A program made the position numbers and the translations under genes. DNA of 34,973 nucleotides. Origin: Phormidium sp. FACHB-1136. Lineage in GTDB: Bacteria > Cyanobacteriota > Cyanobacteriia > Phormidesmidales > Phormidesmidaceae. The DNA is taken from assembly GCF_014697375.1 (NCBI RefSeq), contig NZ_JACJRS010000056.1:1-34973 (forward strand), given 5' to 3'. The notes beneath the pieces are model-generated. The model saw only the letters and a program-made list of their open reading frames with translations, did no database searches and was not told the DNA's origin. Each line of letters starts with the position of its first letter. Within the stretch, counting starts at the first letter, position 1. This document shows, one piece after another, positions 1,052-24,271 of this stretch.

Positions 1052-2899
1052 ATGACTACCCCTGTCGCGTCCCAAAGTGAAGTTCTTGTTCGCCGTGCTT
1101 CCGGGGCCTTTGCCCTGATTGACAGCCTAAAACGCCACGGGGTCAAGCATATTTTTGGCTATCCCGGTGGGGCGATTCTGCCCATCTACGATGAACTCTA
1201 CCGGGCCGAGGCCGCTGGGGACATTTCCCACATTCTAGTGCGCCACGAGCAAGGGGCTGCCCACGCCGCCGATGGCTATGCCCGCGCTACGGGGCAGGTG
1301 GGTGTGTGTTTTGGCACCTCTGGGCCTGGGGCCACCAACCTGGTGACGGGCATTGCCACCGCCCAGATGGACTCGATTCCTTTGGTGGTGATTACGGGTC
1401 AGGTGCCGCGCCACGCCATCGGTAGCGATGCCTTCCAGGAAACGGATATCTACGGCATTACCCTGCCCATCGTGAAGCATTCCTACGTAGCGCGGTCGCC
1501 TCAGCAGATTGCCCAAATGGTGGCCGAAGCCTTCTACATCGCCCGCACCGGGCGCCCTGGCCCCGTTCTGGTCGATATTCCTAAGGATGTGGGCCTGGAG
1601 GAATTTGACTACATTCCCGTAGAGCCGGGTCGGGTGAACCTCACGGGATATAAGCCCACCGTGAAGGGCAACCCTCGCCAGATCAACCCTGCCATCCGTC
1701 TGCTGCGCCAGAGTGAGCGGCCCCTGCTCTACGTGGGTGGTGGGGCAATTACGGCGGGTGCCCATGCGGAAATTGCCAAGCTGGCGGAATATTTCCAAAT
1801 CCCCGTCACCACCACCCTGATGGGCAAGGGGGCCTTCGACGAGCATCATCCCCTATCGGTGGGCATGTTGGGGATGCACGGCACCGCCTACGCCAACTTT
1901 GCCGTCAGCGAGTGCGACCTCCTGATCGCCGTGGGTGCCCGCTTTGACGACCGGGTAACGGGCAAGCTGGACGAGTTTGCCTCCCGCGCCCAGGTGATTC
2001 ACATTGATATTGACCCCGCCGAAGTGGGCAAAAACCGCACGCCCCAGGTGCCCATCGTGGGCGATGTGAAGCAGGTGTTGACGGATCTGCTGGAGCGCCT
2101 GGAAGCCGAAGACCAACTGCCTCCCCCCAACCAAACCGTGGCTTGGCGGGAGCGCATCAACCGCTGGCGGCAAGACTATCCCCTGGTGGTGCCCACCTAT
2201 CCCGACATCCTGTCTCCCCAGGAAGTGATTACGGAGCTTTGCCGTCAAGCGCCCCACGCCTACTACACCACCGATGTGGGCCAACACCAGATGTGGGCGG
2301 CGCAGTTCCTTAAGAACGGCCCCCGCCAGTGGGTGTCTAGCGCCGGATTGGGTACCATGGGCTTTGGCATGCCAGCGGCCATGGGTGTACAGGTGGCGCT
2401 GCCTGATGAAACGGTGATCTGCATCAGCGGCGACGCTAGCTTCCAGATGAACCTGCAAGAACTCGGCACCCTGGCCCAGTACCACATTCCCGTGAAGACC
2501 GTGATTGTGAACAACGGCTGGCAGGGGATGGTGCGCCAGTGGCAGCAGGCCTTCCACGGCGAGCGCTACTCCTCCTCTAATATGGAAGTGGGGATGCCCG
2601 ACTTTGAACTGCTGGCCCGTGCCTACGGCATCAAGGGCATCGTCGTCCACGACCGCAACCAACTGAGCGAAGCCGTGGCTACCATGCTGGCCCACGACGG
2701 CCCCGTGCTGATGGATGTCCATGTGCGCCGCGACGAAAACTGCTATCCCATGGTGGCTCCCGGCAAGGGCAACCACCAGATGATCGGTTTGCCAGAGGTG
2801 GCTGCGGATGCCGTCGCTACCAACCTAACCTGTGGTCAGTGTGGCCATGAGAACGCCCAGGAGAGCCACTTCTGCTCCCAGTGCGGCACCAAGCTCTAG
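1052..2899 (+). CDS. ilvB: Acetolactate synthase large subunit with zinc-ribbon tail
   Basis: Catalytic subunit of acetohydroxyacid synthase, which condenses pyruvate with pyruvate or 2-oxobutyrate using thiamine diphosphate (ThDP) in valine, leucine and isoleucine synthesis. The N-terminal ThDP-pyrimidine domain holds the activating glutamate (E66, in [14 protein letters not shown]). A central FAD-type domain follows. The C-terminal ThDP-pyrophosphate domain has the GDASFQMN metal-binding motif and the downstream asparagines. Biosynthetic large subunits usually end near residue 590. This one continues into residues 593-615 with two CxxC pairs (C594/C597 and C608/C611), a short zinc ribbon that is not part of the standard enzyme. 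The regulatory subunit ilvN is not in this window. A strong hairpin lies 250 bp downstream. The ATG at 1052 fits the usual N-terminus. Confidence 0.96.
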
Positions 2900-2927
2900 G
2901 CGATGCAGCCCTATCCCTAGCGGCCTT

Positions 2928-3071
2928 GGAGATCCCCCTAAATCCCCCTTAATAAGGGGGACTTTGACTTCGGGTTCCCCTTATTAACTGAGACTTTGAC
3001 TCCGGATTCTCCCTTCAGAAGGGCGACGTTGACTCCGGTTCTCCCCTTCACAAGGGGGGCTAGGGGGGATC
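2928..3071. repeat. MITE-like element, copy 1 (three internal units)
   Basis: The ends are imperfect inverted repeats: GGAGATCCCCCTAAATCCCC on the left, and on the right GGGGGGCTAGGGGGGATC, whose complement resembles the left end. Inside, a unit of about 34 bp of the form TTGACTCCGGTTCTCCCTT..AAGGG is repeated about three times. A shorter relative with one unit is at 14254-14329. There is no coding capacity. It resembles the non-autonomous palindromic repeats dispersed in cyanobacterial genomes. Confidence 0.75.
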
Positions 3072-3145
3072 CATCTCGCAGAAAAACAGGGTCGGAAGTC
3101 CTAGGTAAGCAACGGCTCATATAAAACAGTAACGCCCTAATTTCC

Positions 3146-3180
3146 AGCCCAGTCGGATCCCATTTGGATCAGGCTGGGCT
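3146..3180 (+). terminator. Strong stem-loop downstream of ilvB
   Basis: AGCCCAG (3146-3152) pairs with CTGGGCT (3174-3180), and inner GATCC (3156-3160) pairs with GGATC (3166-3170) around a CATTT loop. Only two T residues follow, so it may be a terminator or a structured leader of the FtsL-like gene. A second potential hairpin (GCTAA 3201-3205 with TTAGC 3217-3221, around a T5 run) lies just after it. The rest of 2900-3290 holds only the MITE-like element. Confidence 0.45.
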
Positions 3181-3290
3181 TTGATGATGGACTGAGAGCC
3201 GCTAAGGCGGGGGTTTTTAGCGAACCATAGCCCAGTTTTCAAAGAATGCAGTATCCTAACCTCAGTTATTTTCTGTGGTGTGGGTTGTTT

Positions 3291-3803
3291 ATGTCTGCTG
3301 CGCTGAAGTCCTACGTTCCCCAGCCCGTGCCCACCTCGGTAACCCAGGCTCAACCCCGGCGGTTTGCGGCACGGCCCACGGCTACGGTGGGGGTGTTGCG
3401 GCCTCTCAAGGCTGGGGCGGTGAAATCCCTGCCTGTGGCTCCGGCCTCTAGCCCCCTGCGGCGTACCTTGACCCAGATTCATCTGGTGTCTTCGGTGCTG
3501 GCGGCCTCCCTGGTGAGTCTGACCCTGGTGGGTTACGGCACCTCCGTCTATGTGGATCGCCAACTGGATCAAGCCACCCGCCGCCTCAGCCAGCTTCAGC
3601 GCAGTGAGCAACAACTCACAACCTCCAGCGCCATTTTGACCCGCCACATGGCTCAACAGGCCGAAGATCCTGCCACGGGCCTTCAGCCCCCCAAGCCCGA
3701 CCAGGTGATTTTTCTGCAACCCGCCCCCCAGCGTCCGGCCCAAACTCCTGCCGATTCTTCCGCAGGCGCTAGCTTTCGCGCTGACCGTCCCCTAGGGTAT
3801 TGA
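3291..3803 (+). CDS. FtsL-like cell-division protein (single TM, coiled coil)
   Basis: A 170-residue bitopic protein. It has a basic, proline-rich cytoplasmic N-terminus (about 70 residues), one membrane segment (about residues 72-94, rich in L, V, A and S), then a short coiled-coil-like stretch (DRQLDQATRRLSQLQRSEQQ) and a proline-rich tail. This topology, placed directly before a PBP2/FtsI-type transpeptidase, is that of FtsL, which links the FtsQ-type scaffold to FtsWI in the septal complex. FtsL is poorly conserved, so the call rests on architecture and position, not on identity. The frame is open from ATG 3246. I prefer ATG 3291 because the extra 15 residues look unlike an FtsL N-terminus, but neither start has a clear ribosome-binding site. 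Confidence 0.7.
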   Translation: MSAALKSYVPQPVPTSVTQAQPRRFAARPTATVGVLRPLKAGAVKSLPVAPASSPLRRTLTQIHLVSSVLAASLVSLTLVGYGTSVYVDRQLDQATRRLSQLQRSEQQLTTSSAILTRHMAQQAEDPATGLQPPKPDQVIFLQPAPQRPAQTPADSSAGASFRADRPLGY

Positions 3804-3909
3804 TGCTTGTGCCCTTGGGTGTGGCCGAGGGCTTGATTCCGTGGTGGCGGTTGGGCAATATGGATTTCCTCAGCCCCGCACCCTTGCCCCTTCGCTGCTC
3901 TGTTTTCCC

Positions 3910-5739
3910 ATGGCTAGCTCCTTTTCCTCTCCCACCCGTCCCCGTCGTCCTCGGCGAACTCGGTCGCGTTCTCTGGATCAGCGTCGCCCTGGCCTTCAAC
4001 GGACGGGGCAGTTGGCCCGAAGACCCGTGGCTCAAACGGTAAGCGATACCCGCCGCCGCTTGGTGATGGTGTGGGCGCTGCTGATGGCCATGGTGGCCCT
4101 GCTGACCGGACGGCTAGTGTGGCTACAACTCATGCGGGGAGAGAGCCTCGGCCAAATGGCGGCTCAGCAGCGAGTACGGCCCCAGCAGCCCCACCCCCTG
4201 CGCTACCCCATCGTGGATCGTCAGGGCAATCTACTGGCGATGGATCGCATTGTGTATACCCTTTACAGCCATCCCCAGTTGTTTAGCCAGACTCCCGATG
4301 AAGTGGCCACAGCCCTTAGCCCACTGTTGGAAAAACCCGCCGCTGAATTGGTGGATCAGTGGGGCAACCAGCCGACGGGCATTCGGGTGGTTGATGGTCT
4401 TTCCGCTGAAACCGCTGATCGCATTCGCCAACTGAGGCTGAACGGGGTGGAACTGGTGCCCCAACAGCAGCGGTTTTATCCCCAGGAAGGGCTCTTTGCG
4501 CCCGTGGTGGGTTTTGTTAACCTGGATGGCGCAGCCCAGGCGGGAATAGAAATTGGTCAAGAAAAACAACTGCTGCTGCCGGAACGGGATCAACGCGATC
4601 CGGCTATGGCCCTGGTGCAAGGACAGAATCATCAGGCCAGTTTGCATCTTACCCTAGACAGTCGTCTTCAGCGGGTGGCCCAAAATGCCCTAGAGGCCAT
4701 GGTGGCCCAGCGATCCGCTAAGGGCGGGGCCATTATGGTCATGGATGTAGATACCGGGGCTATGCTGGCCATGGCCGTGGCCCCCACCTACAACCCTAAC
4801 GAGTACTTCCGGGCCGATATGGCAGCGTTTCGTAACTGGGCCATTAGCGACCTCTACGAGCCAGGGTCTACCTTCAAGCCCATCAACGTGGCCATTGCCC
4901 TAGAGGCGGGTGTGCTTCAGCCCGACGAAATGGTGAACGATAGTGGTCAAATTCAGTTTGGGCGTTGGACGATTCGCAACAGCGACTACGCCACGTCCGG
5001 GGGGCGAGGCACTATTTCCATCACCGATGTGATGAAATACTCTAGCAATGTCGGCATGATTCGCATTATGCAAAAGCTGACACCCCAGGATTATCTGCAA
5101 TGGCTGAAGAAATTGGGTATGGATCAACCCTCTGGCATTGACCTCCCCAACGAGGCCATGGGCCAAATGAAGGACGAGGAACAATTTATCCGCAGCCGCG
5201 TTGAACCCGCTACCACCTCCTTTGGGCAAGGGTTTTCCATGACGCCCATTAAAATGATGCAGCTTCAGGCGGCGACCATGAATGGCGGACGATTGGTGAC
5301 CCCCCATGTTGTCCGTGGTCTGATCGCCGAGGACGGGACCTCGCTATGGCAACCGCCGCGTCCTCAGCCTAAGCAGATATTCTCAGAACGTACCACCCAA
5401 GCCCTGATGCCCATGCTGGAGGCTGTTGTGGCTACGGGCACCGGGAAAGCGGCCCAAATCCCTGGCTATCGCATTGGCGGTAAAACCGGAACGGCCCAAA
5501 AAGCCCTGCCCGGTGGGGGGTATGGCCCAGGCCGCATCACCAGTTTTGTGGGAGTCCTACCCGTAGATAACCCCCGCTACGTGATCATGGCCATCATCGA
5601 CGAACCCAAGGGTGACGACGCCTACGGGGGGACTACCGCCGCCCCCCTCGTGAAGGAGGTAGGCGAAGCCCTAGTGGTACTGGAGGGCATTCCCCCCCAT
5701 GGTGTGACCGCAGCCTCCGAGGCGACAACTTCGGATTAG
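3910..5739 (+). CDS. ftsI: Penicillin-binding protein 2 / FtsI-type peptidoglycan transpeptidase
   Basis: Class B penicillin-binding protein that cross-links septal peptidoglycan stem peptides. It has a basic N-terminal tail, one membrane anchor (about residues 51-75), a dimerisation/pedestal domain, and a transpeptidase domain with all three motifs: S320-T-F-K323 (catalytic serine), S378-S-N380 and K525-T-G527. The length (609 aa) is normal for the family. The frame is open from 3841, but ATG 3910 (MASSFSS...) gives the usual basic, Ser/Arg-rich start, and the upstream 23 residues look non-native. It lies about 105 bp after the FtsL-like gene, so the two probably form one division operon. 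It is convergent with gmk. Confidence 0.93.
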   Translation: MASSFSSPTRPRRPRRTRSRSLDQRRPGLQRTGQLARRPVAQTVSDTRRRLVMVWALLMAMVALLTGRLVWLQLMRGESLGQMAAQQRVRPQQPHPLRYPIVDRQGNLLAMDRIVYTLYSHPQLFSQTPDEVATALSPLLEKPAAELVDQWGNQPTGIRVVDGLSAETADRIRQLRLNGVELVPQQQRFYPQEGLFAPVVGFVNLDGAAQAGIEIGQEKQLLLPERDQRDPAMALVQGQNHQASLHLTLDSRLQRVAQNALEAMVAQRSAKGGAIMVMDVDTGAMLAMAVAPTYNPNEYFRADMAAFRNWAISDLYEPGSTFKPINVAIALEAGVLQPDEMVNDSGQIQFGRWTIRNSDYATSGGRGTISITDVMKYSSNVGMIRIMQKLTPQDYLQWLKKLGMDQPSGIDLPNEAMGQMKDEEQFIRSRVEPATTSFGQGFSMTPIKMMQLQAATMNGGRLVTPHVVRGLIAEDGTSLWQPPRPQPKQIFSERTTQALMPMLEAVVATGTGKAAQIPGYRIGGKTGTAQKALPGGGYGPGRITSFVGVLPVDNPRYVIMAIIDEPKGDDAYGGTTAAPLVKEVGEALVVLEGIPPHGVTAASEATTSD

Positions 5740-9966: not shown

Positions 9967-12021
9967 CTAGGGAGACAGCTTGGCCTTTTTGAGACGGTTT
10001 TCCTCATACCAGGCGGCAATGGCCGGAACCCAAGTCTGGAAGTGGGGCCAAATTTCTTCACAGAGCTTTTGGGCCTCTAGTTGGGCATCGGCTTTCCAGC
10101 GCAGATCGAGGAGATGCATCACCGAGCGCACATTGGCTGACATGACCCAATGCTGACGAATATCAAAGGGAATCAGCCCCCTGGCATGTTCTTCCGCAAA
10201 GCCTTGCTCGATACGTTTCTTATAGCGGCGGCTGGCTTCTAAACACCAGTCCAAATCCTGCTGGCGGGCCTCGGCAGTGTATTCATACTTATTGCCCTGG
10301 CGATCCCCATAAAACCCTAGGGGCCGCAGATAAAAGACCTCTTCAATCTCGCGTTTGCCGTCTACCACATCCAAAATGCGTTGTCCGGTATAGCGGAAGG
10401 AATTGTGCACCACAACGCCATTGGCCACAAAATTGTGCCACGGGCCTTCAACTTCCAAATCGTAGGTGGTTTGGATACCCAGATACTCAACCGCTACAAC
10501 CTTTACGGGATGAGCCTTAAGCTTGCGGCCCACGGGCTTTGACTTAGCAGCCCAGAGGTTAGGTTCTGTAATGGGTTGAAACTGTTGGGCGAACTCTAAT
10601 TCTTGGTGATTGTGATGAATATGTTCATGACAGCTCTGGCAGAGAGAAACCAGATTCTCAAACTCGTAGGCTAAGGACTGTTCGGCAAAGACGGGCACTA
10701 GGTGGTGGGCATGGAGATTTCCGCCCGAATCACCACAGCGTTGGCAAATGTAGTTAAACTTGGCGTGTACCTGGGGGGCAATCTGGCGTGTCCAAGCACC
10801 AATTTGTTCGCGTTCCGTGGCGGTGCCACCTTTCCAAAAGTTGGAATCGGCACCCCGTTTGGTAAAGGCTTTGGCGTTGGCACGCCGCTGTTCTAGGCTT
10901 TCCGGCGAAAGGTTGAGCTTGTAGCCCTTGATGCTTCTATTCCAGGGAGAATCGGTGCCTGGTGGGCGCTTATTGAGGGTGAGGCTATGGGCATAGACCC
11001 ATTTTTTTACGGTCTCAATGGAGCAACCAGCCAAAGCGGCCATTTCATCGACATGCAGCCCTTGATCCAGTTGATCTTGCAGCCAGCTTTTATCACGGTA
11101 TAGGCCATTGCCTACGATGGTCTTGGGGCCACGTCGCCGCCCTGAGGGCAACTGGAGGTGAAATTGCTTCGCCCAGTGACGAATAACGTCGGCAGAGCAA
11201 CCACACTGCGCCGCAATTTGGTGGGCCGTTAGCCCTTGATCGATCTGGGCTTTTAACCAGTTTTTTTGACTGTAGAGGGCGTCGGGTCTCACGACTCCGT
11301 TAGTCATCAATTCGCAGTCTTTTGTGATAGCTAAAACATGGTGATCAGCGGTTGTTATTAAACCAATGGCATCTCCCATGCGTTGCCAGCCCTTGGCTGT
11401 GTAAAGACGGTGATTGGTGGTGCAGTCTAGGGTCTTACCATCGGCTAGAGTGAGTCGATAAACGGGTTGCTCACCGCTACACATGACATCGTGAAGACGA
11501 CCCATTTCAAAATTTCCAGTTTCTTCGTTAAGCACCCGCAGGGCCATTTTTTTTAGGCGAGTTTTGCAGTCGCGGCGATAGGTGCCTGGTGCCTCTCCCC
11601 GGCGACCTCGAATCTTGCGATCTCGTGTAGCGTTCTCTCCGTTCGTCCAGAGATCGTAGAGATCGGCAATTTTAAGTTTTCGGAGGCTGCCTGAGGCGTG
11701 AACAAAGGTGACCTCCGTATCTCCAGCGAGACACTGAACATCGAAGCTCACCCCGACCCGATGGGTGCGGATTTGTTGCATGGTGCTGTGGGGAAACCAG
11801 CCGACATTGAAGACAATTTGGGGATGCTCTAGGGGGCCGTAGTGGCCGCGTCCGCCCTTGAGGAGATTGGTGACTAAAATTTCGCCGCAGCGTTCTTCGC
11901 TGGGCCATTTTTCCCGTTCGTGATTCACAAACCCCTCGGCATAGTCCTGATGCATAGCCGCATACATGGTCTGCTGGGGGTTGGGGGTTTGGGAAATGAC
12001 CTCAACCGTAAACCGATCCAT
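9967..12021 (-). CDS. thyX: Flavin-dependent thymidylate synthase ThyX with HNH intein
   Basis: ThyX makes dTMP from dUMP using methylene-tetrahydrofolate, FAD and NADPH. The N-extein is residues 1-96 and the C-extein 541-684. Spliced together they give a 240-residue enzyme of normal size with the intact signature RTHRVGVSFDVQ|SFRY, where the bar marks the intein. The intein (97-540) begins C97-LAGDTEV, has the block B histidine (TTNH, H204), and ends VVVHN540 before Ser541, as expected for a splicing-competent class 1 intein. It carries tandem helix-turn-helix-like repeats and an HNH nuclease. A GAGG Shine-Dalgarno 8 nt before ATG 12021 overlaps the stop of the upstream gene, so translation is probably coupled. 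No thyA is visible here. Confidence 0.96.
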   Translation of the reverse strand: MDRFTVEVISQTPNPQQTMYAAMHQDYAEGFVNHEREKWPSEERCGEILVTNLLKGGRGHYGPLEHPQIVFNVGWFPHSTMQQIRTHRVGVSFDVQCLAGDTEVTFVHASGSLRKLKIADLYDLWTNGENATRDRKIRGRRGEAPGTYRRDCKTRLKKMALRVLNEETGNFEMGRLHDVMCSGEQPVYRLTLADGKTLDCTTNHRLYTAKGWQRMGDAIGLITTADHHVLAITKDCELMTNGVVRPDALYSQKNWLKAQIDQGLTAHQIAAQCGCSADVIRHWAKQFHLQLPSGRRRGPKTIVGNGLYRDKSWLQDQLDQGLHVDEMAALAGCSIETVKKWVYAHSLTLNKRPPGTDSPWNRSIKGYKLNLSPESLEQRRANAKAFTKRGADSNFWKGGTATEREQIGAWTRQIAPQVHAKFNYICQRCGDSGGNLHAHHLVPVFAEQSLAYEFENLVSLCQSCHEHIHHNHQELEFAQQFQPITEPNLWAAKSKPVGRKLKAHPVKVVAVEYLGIQTTYDLEVEGPWHNFVANGVVVHNSFRYTGQRILDVVDGKREIEEVFYLRPLGFYGDRQGNKYEYTAEARQQDLDWCLEASRRYKKRIEQGFAEEHARGLIPFDIRQHWVMSANVRSVMHLLDLRWKADAQLEAQKLCEEIWPHFQTWVPAIAAWYEENRLKKAKLSP
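10402..11733 (-). mobile_element. HNH-endonuclease intein within ThyX
   Basis: 444-residue intein, residues 97-540 of the precursor. Splicing parts: first residue Cys97, TxxH block B at 201-204, penultimate His539, Asn540 and +1 Ser541. Endonuclease: C426-x2-C429, H437/H439/H440, N456, C461-x2-C464 and following histidines, a zinc-braced HNH homing nuclease. Between them lie two homologous segments of about 44 residues (about 248-291 and 306-349). The insertion point splits the dUMP/FAD-binding signature, the most conserved stretch of the host gene, as is usual for inteins. Confidence 0.95.
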
Positions 12022-21076: not shown

Positions 21077-21255
21077 CGCCGTTGTCCAAAGGTGGAGTTC
21101 TCCTAGATTTTCCCTTAAGTTTTCCCTGGCGGGGTGATAGTCGGTGCCATTGACCCAAATCTAGGGCAGACTAGACGGTAATTTGGTTGCTCCGTAGTTG
21201 TGTCCGTGTCGGTTATCAACTGCGGTCTGCCCCTGTGTCTCTGCCCATCGCCGCC

Positions 21256-22302
21256 ATGCCCAAAATTCTATTTCTTGCCGCCAACCCCAAAAACACCACC
21301 CGCCTGCGCCTCGATGAGGAACTGCGGGACATCAAAGAAGGACTGCGCCGTGCCCAACAGCGGGACAAGTTTACTCTGATTTCCCATGAGGCCGTGCGTT
21401 CCCGCGACATTCAGCGGGCCATGCTGGACGAAATGCCCCAGATCGTCCACTTCTCCGGTCATGGCGATGGTGAAGCCGGACTAGCCTTTGAGGACGAAAC
21501 AGGCCACGCCAAACTGATCGACGGCAACGCCCTAGCCGACCTATTCGCCCTGTTTGCCGACCCCACGGAATTCCCCGAACCGCTGACCTGTGTGGTGCTC
21601 AACGGCTGCTACAGCGAAGTGCAGGCCAACGCCATCGCTGACTATGTGCCCTACGTCATCGGCATGACCCAAGCCATCCCCGACCGCGCCGCCATCGAGT
21701 TTGCCGTCGGCTTTTACGATGCCCTCGGCGCAGGCCGCAGCGTCCCCTTTGCCTTCAAACTCGCCTGCAACGCCATCGCCCGCACAGGCCAACCCGCCGC
21801 AGAAATCCCCACCCTCCTCAACAAAATCCAGCCCCCCACCCCCACATCTTCCTCTACCTCCCCTCTCCCGTGGGGAGAGGGGCCGGGGGTGAGGGCCAAC
21901 CCCGCCGAAGAGGAATCGCGAACCAACGCCATCCCCCAAGGCCGCACCCAGCTCTACCAATTTTTGCTCCGTATTCCACCTGCTCAATTTGAAATGGTAA
22001 TCTTTGACCTCAACCCACCCAAGGGCAACATTTCCCCTGGTTCTGCCCCCCAAGGCCAACGGGTACCGGAATTGCTGGAATGGCTAGATAGCCCCATCGG
22101 CCCAGGACTAGAAGCCCTACGTACCTCCCTGACCAACGTCCTCTATCCTCAAGCTCAGCCAGGGCCAACGGGGGCCGGAAGCCGCAACATTAGCATTGGG
22201 ACATCTGCGGATGGTTCCGCTGTAATTAGCGGGGATGGCAACCAAGTGAACCAGTCCTATACGATTAACATTCAAAGGGATAGAGGGGACGGTCGTGGCT
22301 GA
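21256..22302 (+). CDS. CHAT-domain protease with EAD-like domain and C-terminal shared motif
   Basis: A 348-residue protein. The CHAT (caspase-like) domain fills about residues 1-190, with catalytic H69 in HFSGHG and C118 in VLNGCYS. The linker (about 192-226) is Pro/Ser-rich and contains a translated REP-like palindrome (PLPWGEGPGVRA, 203-214). Residues about 228-297 (RTQLYQFLLRIPPAQFEMVI..LLEWLDSP) resemble effector-associated domains, small death-fold-like adaptors. Residues 309-340 form a beta-prone motif also found at the start of the next protein. I chose ATG 21256 (MPKILFLAANP, typical CHAT start) over ATG 21187. The stop overlaps the NACHT start by 8 nt, so translation is coupled. Probable effector of an NLR-like conflict system. 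Confidence 0.88.
   Translation: MPKILFLAANPKNTTRLRLDEELRDIKEGLRRAQQRDKFTLISHEAVRSRDIQRAMLDEMPQIVHFSGHGDGEAGLAFEDETGHAKLIDGNALADLFALFADPTEFPEPLTCVVLNGCYSEVQANAIADYVPYVIGMTQAIPDRAAIEFAVGFYDALGAGRSVPFAFKLACNAIARTGQPAAEIPTLLNKIQPPTPTSSSTSPLPWGEGPGVRANPAEEESRTNAIPQGRTQLYQFLLRIPPAQFEMVIFDLNPPKGNISPGSAPQGQRVPELLEWLDSPIGPGLEALRTSLTNVLYPQAQPGPTGAGSRNISIGTSADGSAVISGDGNQVNQSYTINIQRDRGDGRG
21860..21897. repeat. REP-like palindrome inserted in the CHAT coding sequence
   Basis: CCCCTCTCCC (21860-21869) and GGGAGAGGGG (21873-21882) are perfect inverted arms with a GTG loop, followed by CCGGGGGTGAGGGC. This G/C-rich palindrome is a widespread bacterial intergenic repeat (translated as PLPxGEGPGVR). Here it is in frame within the linker. 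Confidence 0.75.
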
Positions 22303-24271
22303 CCAGCGCAACATCGACGTTAAACAATCCGCAGACGGATCAGCCCTGGTTTCTGGCGACCACAACCGCATTGATCAATCCCGCACGGTCAACAATGTCG
22401 TCAACAACTACTATGGGCCGCTGCCCAACCAGCCGCCCTCCCAACGCACCGACCGCAACGAGAAAACATTGCTCAGTGCCGTGTGGGCCGAGGTGCAGGA
22501 TCGCCTCAACCAGTCCCTTCACAATGCGGTGCTGCTGAACCTGGGCAAGGCCGAACAACGCCACCAGGTCAGCCGCCCCTGGGATAGCCAGCTTCGCATT
22601 GCCGACCAAGCCAGCCGCCCCCTCGACCCCGAAACCGCCATTGCCGAGGTGTTTGACCGGGAAGACATTAACGGCAGGCTGCTGATTTTGGGCAATCCCG
22701 GCGCAGGCAAAACTACTACCTTGCTAGACCTCGCCGCCGCCCTAGTGCAGCGGGCCAATGGCGACCCCGCCCAGCCGATTCCGGTGATGTTTAACCTGTC
22801 TTCTTGGCAAGACGACAAACAAACCCTAAAAGACTGGCTGCTGAGCGAACTCAAGCTGAAATACGGTGTATCGACCAAGCTGGGCCAGCCCTGGCTAGAG
22901 GCCCAAACCCTGCTGCCCCTGCTGGATGGCCTAGACGAACTGCCGCCCCACCGCCAAGAACCCGCCGTCCAAAAAATTAACGACTGGCTGCAATCGGGCG
23001 AAGGAGCCAGCCAACTGCTGGTGTGCAGCCGCCGCGAAGAATACGAACTCTACGCCACCAAGCTGTTGCTAAATGGGGCCATTTGCCTAGAACCCCTCAC
23101 CGATGACCAACTGGCCACCTACTTTGCGGCCCTAGGCATGGAACCCCTATGGCACACCGTCCGCCAAGACCCCGACTTTTTGGCCCTGGTACGCACCCCC
23201 CTGCTGCTCAGCGTGTCTATTTTGGCCAACGACACCATCGACCCCGCCCAATGGCAACGCCTCACCACCCCCCAAGAACGCCTCAATTACCTGCTCGATG
23301 CCTACATTCAACGGCAACTGCACGCCCCTATTGCCAGCCGCACCTACCCGCCCCACAAACAACCCACCGCCCAACAAACCCGCCACTGGCTAACCTGGCT
23401 GGCCCAACAACTGCAAGCCCAATCGGAAGATGAGTTTTTGATTGAGAAAATGCAGCCCTCTATGTTAGCGAACAAGAAGGAAACAAGGCTTTATGAGATG
23501 ATTATTGGGCTAAACACTGTGCCGGTTGCTGGGATGATTATTGGGCCAATTGCTGGGTTGATTCTTGGACTGGTTCTTGTGCTAGTTCTTGGGCTGATTA
23601 GAAAGGATGCTGATGTTATTACGATTAAAAACTTCGATTTTTCTTTTTCGCACTCCGCACGAAAAAAAATTATCAAAGGACTACAAAATGGGCTGTTTAG
23701 AGGGCTGATTATTGGGTTGATCGGAGGACTGATTGAAGGTCTAACTGTTGGGCTGATTAGAGGATTGATTGGTGGGCTGATTGGAGGGGTGACTGTTGGG
23801 CTGATCGGAGGATTACTTGGAGGACTGCTTGAAGGGCTGACCAATGCGTCAGACCCTGATCTTGTTAGTCGAACGAAGCCGAATCAAGGCATCTTTAATG
23901 CAGCTCGAAATATCCTGCCTGTTTCATTAGCGATCTATCCATTTACTGTACTTATGGCAATAGGTAGTCAATTTCTTATTGCGATGACTAGTGACAGTAC
24001 TGCGCTTTCCTTTGACTGGTCATGGCTTTTTCTAAGAAGTATTTCCCTCACATTTGTGCTTGGTGGGTTCTACAGCGGCTGGTATGCCTGTGCTCAGCAC
24101 TTCTCCCTCCGCCTAGTGCTGCACCGCACCAACGCCATCCCCTGGAACTATGCCCGTTTCCTCAACCACTGCACCGAGCGGCTATTGTTGCAGCGGGTGG
24201 GGGGTCGGTATCGGTTCATTCACCGCCTCATACAAGAACGTTTTGCCGCCACCGGGGGCCATCGGCTGTAG
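22295..24271 (+). CDS. NACHT-domain NTPase (NLR-like) with glycine-rich membrane region
   Basis: A 658-residue STAND/NACHT protein. Residues 5-38 repeat the motif at the end of the CHAT protein. The NACHT core (about 125-345) has Walker A GNPGAGKT (133-140) and Walker B LLPLLDGLDELP (D211, D214, E215), followed by a helical/winged-helix part. Residues about 401-600 are membrane-like. Two hydrophobic stretches (401-435 and 537-600) flank a tandem array (about 462-516) of GLxxGLIGG-type units. The end (FLNHCTERLLLQRVGGRYRFIHRLIQERF) is the conserved C-terminal block of cyanobacterial NACHT proteins. There is no LRR or TPR sensor. Start GTG 22295 follows a GAGGGG ribosome-binding site. The membrane region is visibly more AT-rich than the rest. 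Confidence 0.9.
   Translation: MADQRNIDVKQSADGSALVSGDHNRIDQSRTVNNVVNNYYGPLPNQPPSQRTDRNEKTLLSAVWAEVQDRLNQSLHNAVLLNLGKAEQRHQVSRPWDSQLRIADQASRPLDPETAIAEVFDREDINGRLLILGNPGAGKTTTLLDLAAALVQRANGDPAQPIPVMFNLSSWQDDKQTLKDWLLSELKLKYGVSTKLGQPWLEAQTLLPLLDGLDELPPHRQEPAVQKINDWLQSGEGASQLLVCSRREEYELYATKLLLNGAICLEPLTDDQLATYFAALGMEPLWHTVRQDPDFLALVRTPLLLSVSILANDTIDPAQWQRLTTPQERLNYLLDAYIQRQLHAPIASRTYPPHKQPTAQQTRHWLTWLAQQLQAQSEDEFLIEKMQPSMLANKKETRLYEMIIGLNTVPVAGMIIGPIAGLILGLVLVLVLGLIRKDADVITIKNFDFSFSHSARKKIIKGLQNGLFRGLIIGLIGGLIEGLTVGLIRGLIGGLIGGVTVGLIGGLLGGLLEGLTNASDPDLVSRTKPNQGIFNAARNILPVSLAIYPFTVLMAIGSQFLIAMTSDSTALSFDWSWLFLRSISLTFVLGGFYSGWYACAQHFSLRLVLHRTNAIPWNYARFLNHCTERLLLQRVGGRYRFIHRLIQERFAATGGHRL

Follow-up and report, generated by a model that had tools for sequence, protein, structure and literature searches.

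The window analysed here, a 34,973-nt stretch of Phormidium sp. FACHB-1136 (contig NZ_JACJRS010000056.1), contains a thyX gene interrupted by an intein. This locus raises the question of whether the interruption is still an active homing element, and what marks such an element leaves on its host gene. The open reading frame encodes a ThyX precursor carrying a full-length, class-1-type HNH intein, and the element is very probably a homing intein that splices, homes, and in some lineages later loses its endonuclease. The gene and its parts are located as follows:

9967..12021, minus strand: thyX, the intein-interrupted precursor of 684 aa (open reading frame plus Pfam/NCBIfam matches)
11734..12021, minus strand: ThyX N-extein, residues 1-96, terminating in ...RTHRVGVSFDVQ (agrees with the empty alleles)
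10402..11733, minus strand: intein of 444 aa, from C1 to H443 N444, precursor residues 97-540 (profile matches and alignment)
11296..11733, minus strand: Hint splicing domain, N-terminal portion covering roughly intein residues 1-146 (TIGR01445, AlphaFold, Foldseek)
11149..11274, minus strand: helix-turn-helix unit 1, intein residues 154-195 (HTH_23, 2.5e-5; three predicted helices)
10975..11100, minus strand: helix-turn-helix unit 2, intein residues 212-253 (HTH_28, 8.7e-5; three predicted helices)
10612..10746, minus strand: zinc-HNH endonuclease domain, intein residues 330-374 (PF01844, 4.1e-8; invariant residues)
10402..10524, minus strand: Hint splicing domain, C-terminal portion covering roughly intein residues 404-444 (TIGR01443, 7.3e-7; pLDDT ~90 over most of it)
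10399..10401, minus strand: TCC codon of the +1 serine, presumed to be both the nucleophile of splicing and the motif serine of ThyX
9967..10401, minus strand: ThyX C-extein, beginning SFRYTG..., stop included

The precursor matches the ThyX family PF02511 (6e-35, 121.2 bits against a cut-off of 24.8) in two stretches flanking the intein, and the NCBIfam thyX model TIGR02170 (2.5e-45, 154.6 bits against a cut-off of 87.9). Between the two ThyX stretches lie matches to PF14890 (Intein_splicing, 2.2e-10, above its cut-off) and to the HNH family PF01844 (33.7 bits against a cut-off of 21.4), and the models for the intein N-terminus (TIGR01445, 5.5e-6) and C-terminus (TIGR01443) both exceed their cut-offs. 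The ThyX, intein and HNH matches, all on one continuous open reading frame, are not due to chance. The insertion point lies before the serine of S-F-R-Y in the ThyX motif, and removal of the intein in silico leaves a 240-aa ThyX that matches solved ThyX chains (best 2.5e-5). The initial annotation had described the signature motif of ThyX as split by an HNH intein, and its intein boundaries, precursor residues and remaining 240-residue ThyX are confirmed exactly; the tandem helix-turn-helix units, degenerate forms, viral carriers and codon pattern described below go beyond it.

The two helix-turn-helix units are arranged in tandem between the Hint and HNH parts, and 17 of 42 residues are identical between them; both matches fall below the profile cut-offs, unit 1 slightly (24.4 bits against 24.6) and unit 2 at 23 bits against 25. 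The splicing and zinc-HNH residues, which had been described as all present, are invariant in an alignment of 18 full-length homologous inteins: C1, T105/H108, D425, H433, H443 and N444 on the one hand, and C330/C333/C365/C368, H343/H344/N360/H369 and H373 on the other. These are residues to which splicing and zinc/HNH roles are generally assigned in such domains. The residues of a class 1 intein are present (C1, the block B TxxH, the penultimate His, the terminal Asn, and +1 Ser), and the +1 Ser also occurs in the other carriers whose junctions were read, the class-wide search pattern itself having required Ser. In the AlphaFold model (mean pLDDT 71.9), the Hint domain is confident, with block means of 68-94 in its N-terminal part, and the HNH part is of low confidence. 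The best PDB matches of the Hint domain in Foldseek are the DnaB, RecA, and DnaE inteins.

The natural endonucleases of the Ssp DnaB and Mtu RecA inteins are LAGLIDADG enzymes, whereas that of the window's intein is HNH. Both of these inteins (PDB 1mi8, 2in9) have a Hint splicing fold like that of the window's, in different host proteins. The host protein is shared with the Ter ThyX intein (Ter standing for Trichodesmium erythraeum), reportedly the subject of a 2004 paper by Liu and Yang. The Ter ThyX intein is a natural intein of ThyX, as in the window, and its mini-intein splices to ~100% in E. coli (PMC3620165). For mycobacteriophages, another account lists two TdS inteins (PMC5050341). Mycobacteriophages Norm and StAugustine have an HNH intein in the ThyX signature motif, as does the window, although the Norm intein is only ~33% identical to the window's, is shorter (257 aa), and sits five residues upstream of the window's site, in front of the first serine of the motif (HRHRSGF|SYNEESGRY). 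ThyX inteins are already known (Ter ThyX, PMC3620165; mycobacteriophages, PMC5050341), and the window's intein is a further member.

From knowledge of the intein family, the precursor would be translated whole, and the Hint domain would excise itself through a thioester at C1, transfer to the +1 Ser, and cyclization of N444, with ligation of FDVQ to SFRY restoring the ThyX motif. The endonuclease, with its two helix-turn-helix units and HNH domain, would cut intein-free thyX alleles at the insertion place, and repair would copy the intein plus a short flanking tract into the cut allele (co-conversion). Some lineages would later lose the endonuclease by deletion, and the element would spread among cyanobacterial genera, with phages possibly one vehicle. 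For the window's intein, we infer the splicing chemistry, the cutting specificity and the vehicle; what can be read directly in the sequences is the anatomy, a patchy distribution, and some intein-extein discordance, as well as purifying selection, several degenerate forms and, in one case, a tract resembling co-conversion.

The distribution was examined at three scales. The named genomes (Nodosilinea, Leptolyngbya, and other cyanobacteria) provide 25 loci, of which ten have a full-length intein (one cut by a contig end), two a shortened intein, and one only a thyX remnant; the other 12 are intein-free alleles of 240 aa in which the flanks are joined without a gap, as FDVQ|SFRY in 11 and FDVQ|SMRY in one. 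PF02511 is present in 59 of the 63 genomes of the window's family: 13 are intein carriers, 44 have only an empty native allele (including G047, whose allele is frame-broken), one (G024) has a thyX remnant and a divergent ThyX, and one (G029) has a divergent ThyX alone. Many of the intein carriers are MAGs. The initial annotation had regarded a lack of intein-less alleles in relatives as evidence against its reading; relatives do have them, at 12 of the 25 named loci and in 44 of the 63 family genomes. The class-wide set of 388 genomes includes 36 carriers in which the junction before S-x-R-Y can be read, with intein lengths of 199-459 aa in the 31 for which length was measured. Six carriers have an intein of 384-401 aa, and in the five of 384 aa the match passes over approximately residues 149-205, equivalent to one helix-turn-helix unit. 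Mini-inteins with differing endonuclease deletions occur in G028 (229 aa), G046 (291 aa, in a 5.47-Mb contig), and RM118 (294 aa; outside the 63-genome family list). A plasmid search returned a single weak match.

Two further sets of loci deserve mention. In G024 (filamentous cyanobacterium CCT1; L028:5533-7894, and the same region in L090), only a 3' remnant survives of the native thyX, whose place has been taken by an intact, divergent ThyX and an opposite-strand DUF4365 gene, and the upstream gene resembles the window's by eye; replacement of this kind would take out any intein too. Breaks in G277, G288, G291, and G305 were considered as a natural split intein or pseudogene and rejected: G288 contains a run of N and the others frameshifts in draft assemblies, so these breaks are not interpretable and we make no claim from them.

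Serine alone among the amino acids has two codon sets (TCN and AGY) that are unlike at both of the first two positions; a switch from TCN to AGY at the +1 position would therefore alter the target at the insertion point and leave ThyX unchanged. Since both sets encode Ser, splicing chemistry cannot explain a preference between them, and any such pattern must act at the DNA level. Within the genus of the window, none of the nine occupied alleles has an AGY codon for the +1 serine (all nine have TCN), vs. nine of 13 empty alleles (Fisher p 0.0017), an unexpected split. The counts become 0/10 occupied and 9/14 empty (p 0.0020) when both cut alleles of G039 are added, and 0/8 and 9/14 (p 0.0055) when D1MAG and WJT8 are left out with G039 kept. 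D1MAG was counted in the genus set, and its bin is apparently G348, a genome of another family that also holds an empty allele, so that the D1MAG contig is probably foreign to its bin. In a wider set, all 18 occupied alleles are TCN, and the 46 empty alleles are divided into 20 AGY and 26 TCN (the 63-genome list does not include five of the 18 or one of the 46). By exact matches to one pattern, an empty AGY site occurs in 25 of the 388 genomes of the class and an empty TCN site in 127. Of the 36 class-wide carriers with a readable junction, 35 have TCN and one AGT (G257, in a divergent ThyX); AGY is rare among empty sites outside the family, and carriers there are therefore uninformative. In the viral loci L191 and L193, divergent ThyX inteins are followed by AGC, so AGY is compatible with an intein.

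The split between TCN and AGY may reflect either co-conversion or resistance to homing, with shared ancestry a less likely source. Chance shared ancestry, in which the codon is no mark of homing at all, would account for the codon pattern only, and we consider it unlikely. In its favor, the pattern was spotted by eye before any test, and the genus p of 0.0017, albeit the top rank among 202 variable columns, does not survive correction for that number of tests; the rarity of AGY among empty sites outside the family points the same way. On the rpoB tree, nine independent pairs differ in the intein, with AGY accompanying the intein in none, the opposite in four to six, and no codon difference in three to five, giving a p of 0.03-0.125. 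However, in 374 column tests on that tree (three of them the +1 codon itself), the improvement is largest for the +1 codon, at 7.05; the next is 5.55, in one of two linked columns near -177, the other of which scores 4.83. A control serine five codons upstream, which also switches between AGY and TCN, has no signal (4/9 vs. 7/13, p 1; -1.9 in the column tests). Model comparison likewise disfavors independence of codon and intein (AIC 105.5, or 94.1 with dual change allowed) against resistance (90.8 and 90.4) and co-conversion (88.9), with several rates reaching their cap in the independent and resistance models.

The resistance reading, in which the +1 serine codon lets thyX evade a natural gene drive by a synonymous change and the AGY thyX alleles of Nodosilinea are resistant, is offered only tentatively. 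If it holds, the TCN empty alleles would be ones that are susceptible or that once held the intein. The same footprint would result if each invasion co-converted an AGY target to TCN, and the AIC values do not separate the two. The thyX system would allow a direct test of whether a silent serine switch lets host genes escape a homing element, which bears on gene drives. For the haloarchaeal MCM-d intein, the codon that follows the insertion site is likewise not the same in occupied and empty alleles, and co-conversion and resistant alleles are discussed (PMC10643990). There the difference is Ser vs. Pro and is explained by splicing, whereas in the window's ThyX family both alleles have Ser, which places the difference at the DNA level. 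No published synonymous codon pattern of this sort was found in the titles and abstract openings screened or in the accessible parts of PMC10643990, PMC3024317, and PMC2814812, and the codon pattern is the part that specialists might find new.

The annotation's claim that the intein is mobile agrees with its patchy presence, its discordance with the extein in some genomes, and the empty alleles of relatives. Presence and absence require 14 changes on an extein tree of 61 rows and ten on an rpoB tree of 38 rows having both traits, and the spliced ThyX protein is identical in WJT8 (occupied) and G033 (empty). The inteins of G061 and G046 are far closer to those of G026, G032, and G034, which belong to another genus, than are their exteins or rpoB: for G061, pS is 0.42-0.47 in the intein, 0.68-0.76 in the extein, and 0.61-0.64 in rpoB, and for G046 it is 0.35-0.38 (first 239 intein codons), 0.71-0.72, and 0.69-0.70, respectively. 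Among 13 other pairs compared, G028/G034 likewise has the closer intein (0.41 vs. 0.61 and 0.72 outside it), as slightly does G028/G026; the remaining pairs have an intein whose divergence roughly equals or exceeds that of the extein. Conversely, the sister genomes G027 and G028 (rpoB pS 0.25, extein 0.39) hold unlike inteins (0.66, 148 codons); for mini-inteins, pS covers the common N-terminal codons only. The comparisons with relatives as a whole suggest that the intein moves between species, taking along a short piece of neighboring DNA. By comparison with extein and rpoB, the G061 and G046 inteins have spread into the matching site of other lineages independently of the host gene; the window's own copy gives no such sign, its divergence from other inteins (pairs with the window's genome, G000) being like that of extein and rpoB.

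It is very unlikely that the intein is a degenerate passenger that still splices but no longer cuts, its patchiness being old vertical inheritance with many losses. Mini-inteins with deleted endonucleases are indeed common, and in the close pairs G026/G034 and G000/G040 divergence is greater in the intein than in the extein. Old inheritance, however, fits poorly with the G061, G046, and G027/G028 comparisons, and loss of cutting fits poorly with the invariant zinc-HNH residues of the 18 copies. Median omega is also as low in the HNH region (0.034) as in the extein of carriers (0.032), with dS saturated in many pairs, the HNH value absent for five of 11 pairs, and the pairs non-independent; by this measure, the HNH codons are under purifying selection.

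An active homing intein should leave tracts of copied flanking sequence, and one candidate was found. The MAG G039 has an occupied and an empty thyX allele on separate contigs of one bin, and the alleles, which have 277 nt in common, show 14 differences within 58 nt (-10 to +48 of the site) and none in the 219 nt outside. In a span test, the chance of 14 differences in 277 nt spanning at most 58 nt is 4e-9 (1.7e-9 for the 13 third-position differences alone), whereas differences are spread out in three close pairs inspected in the same way. The pattern is like that expected of repair copying over a short, asymmetric tract, and suggests that co-conversion happens, as a single case at two contig ends whose overlap was set by the assembler, in a bin rated 4% contaminated. 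Broad flanking co-conversion was not found in a nine-allele clade (occupied G026, G032, G034, and WJT8; empty G031, G033, G044, G045, and G025) that was picked once its codons were known: mean identities differ by no more than 0.03 between like and unlike pairs in all nine other segments of the gene, and only the +1 codon separates the alleles (identity 1.00 for occupied-occupied, 1.00 for empty-empty, and 0.00 for occupied-empty pairs). Exchange of whole thyX alleles by ordinary recombination, intein included and without homing, could explain why occupancy varies among close relatives and why G039 holds both forms, but it is highly improbable given the narrow separation in this clade, the 58-nt confinement in G039, and the intein-extein discordance.

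The initial annotation also held that the thymidylate supply depends on splicing, and proposed a search for a second thymidylate synthase. The window's genome has a single ThyX, the interrupted one, and the search found a ThyA-like protein in it: 517 aa, with a C-terminal pterin-binding DUF4346, matching PF00303 (2.2e-12) and, below the cut-off of 174.55, the methanogen-type TIGR03283 (130 bits). The ThyA cysteine and the R-S-x-D...N segment align with a solved ThyA chain. Its gene lies in a nucleotide cassette (L072:4447-8906, contig C146) together with a dCTP deaminase-like DCD gene, a deoxyribosyltransferase-like gene (slightly below the Pfam cut-off), a 414-aa DCD-like gene, and a dCMP deaminase. 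PF00303 matches in only this one of the 63 family genomes, some of them incomplete, and in none of the other 12 intein carriers, among which completeness is only 83% for G028 and 87% for G040; G039 has an empty thyX contig besides its occupied one. The lack of a PF00303 match in 12 of 13 carriers, like the low extein omega of carriers (0.032), is an indirect sign that splicing takes place. Dependence of dTMP supply on splicing is therefore likely in the other 12 carriers, where dTMP synthesis without ThyA should hinge on protein splicing; for the window's genome, the claim is only partly supported, given the ThyA-like gene. Four family genomes (G013, G030, G035, and G041) have neither a PF02511 nor a PF00303 match, and two of these are rated 98% and 100% complete.

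ThyX inteins were also found in viral sequences. Among seven viral loci, L187 has a full HNH intein at the window's site and L189 and L190 have mini-inteins. The L187 ThyX (2635-4794 of an IMG/VR contig) has an intein of 447 aa that is at most 59% identical to the inteins compared (extein at most 49%), and neighbors a polymerase-A-like ORF (below the Pfam cut-off), a RuvC-like resolvase, and a GGDEF-EAL protein; the L189 mini-intein ThyX adjoins a tail-fiber-like gene. Phages are possibly one vehicle of spread. The cyanobacterial genome G360 (L130) has its intein at a second ThyX-motif site, five residues upstream and likewise before a serine, which is the site used in mycobacteriophages Norm (L185) and StAugustine (L186). 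Within one bacterial family, thyX offers an unusually complete natural homing cycle: alleles that are empty, full, stripped of the endonuclease, or carried by viruses, plus a tract resembling co-conversion and a silent codon difference that follows occupancy. Elsewhere in the window (21187-24271, plus strand), a CHAT-domain gene and a NACHT gene share an 8-bp overlap (PADLOC 'chat', 5.2e-19), and the two form a candidate anti-phage pair.
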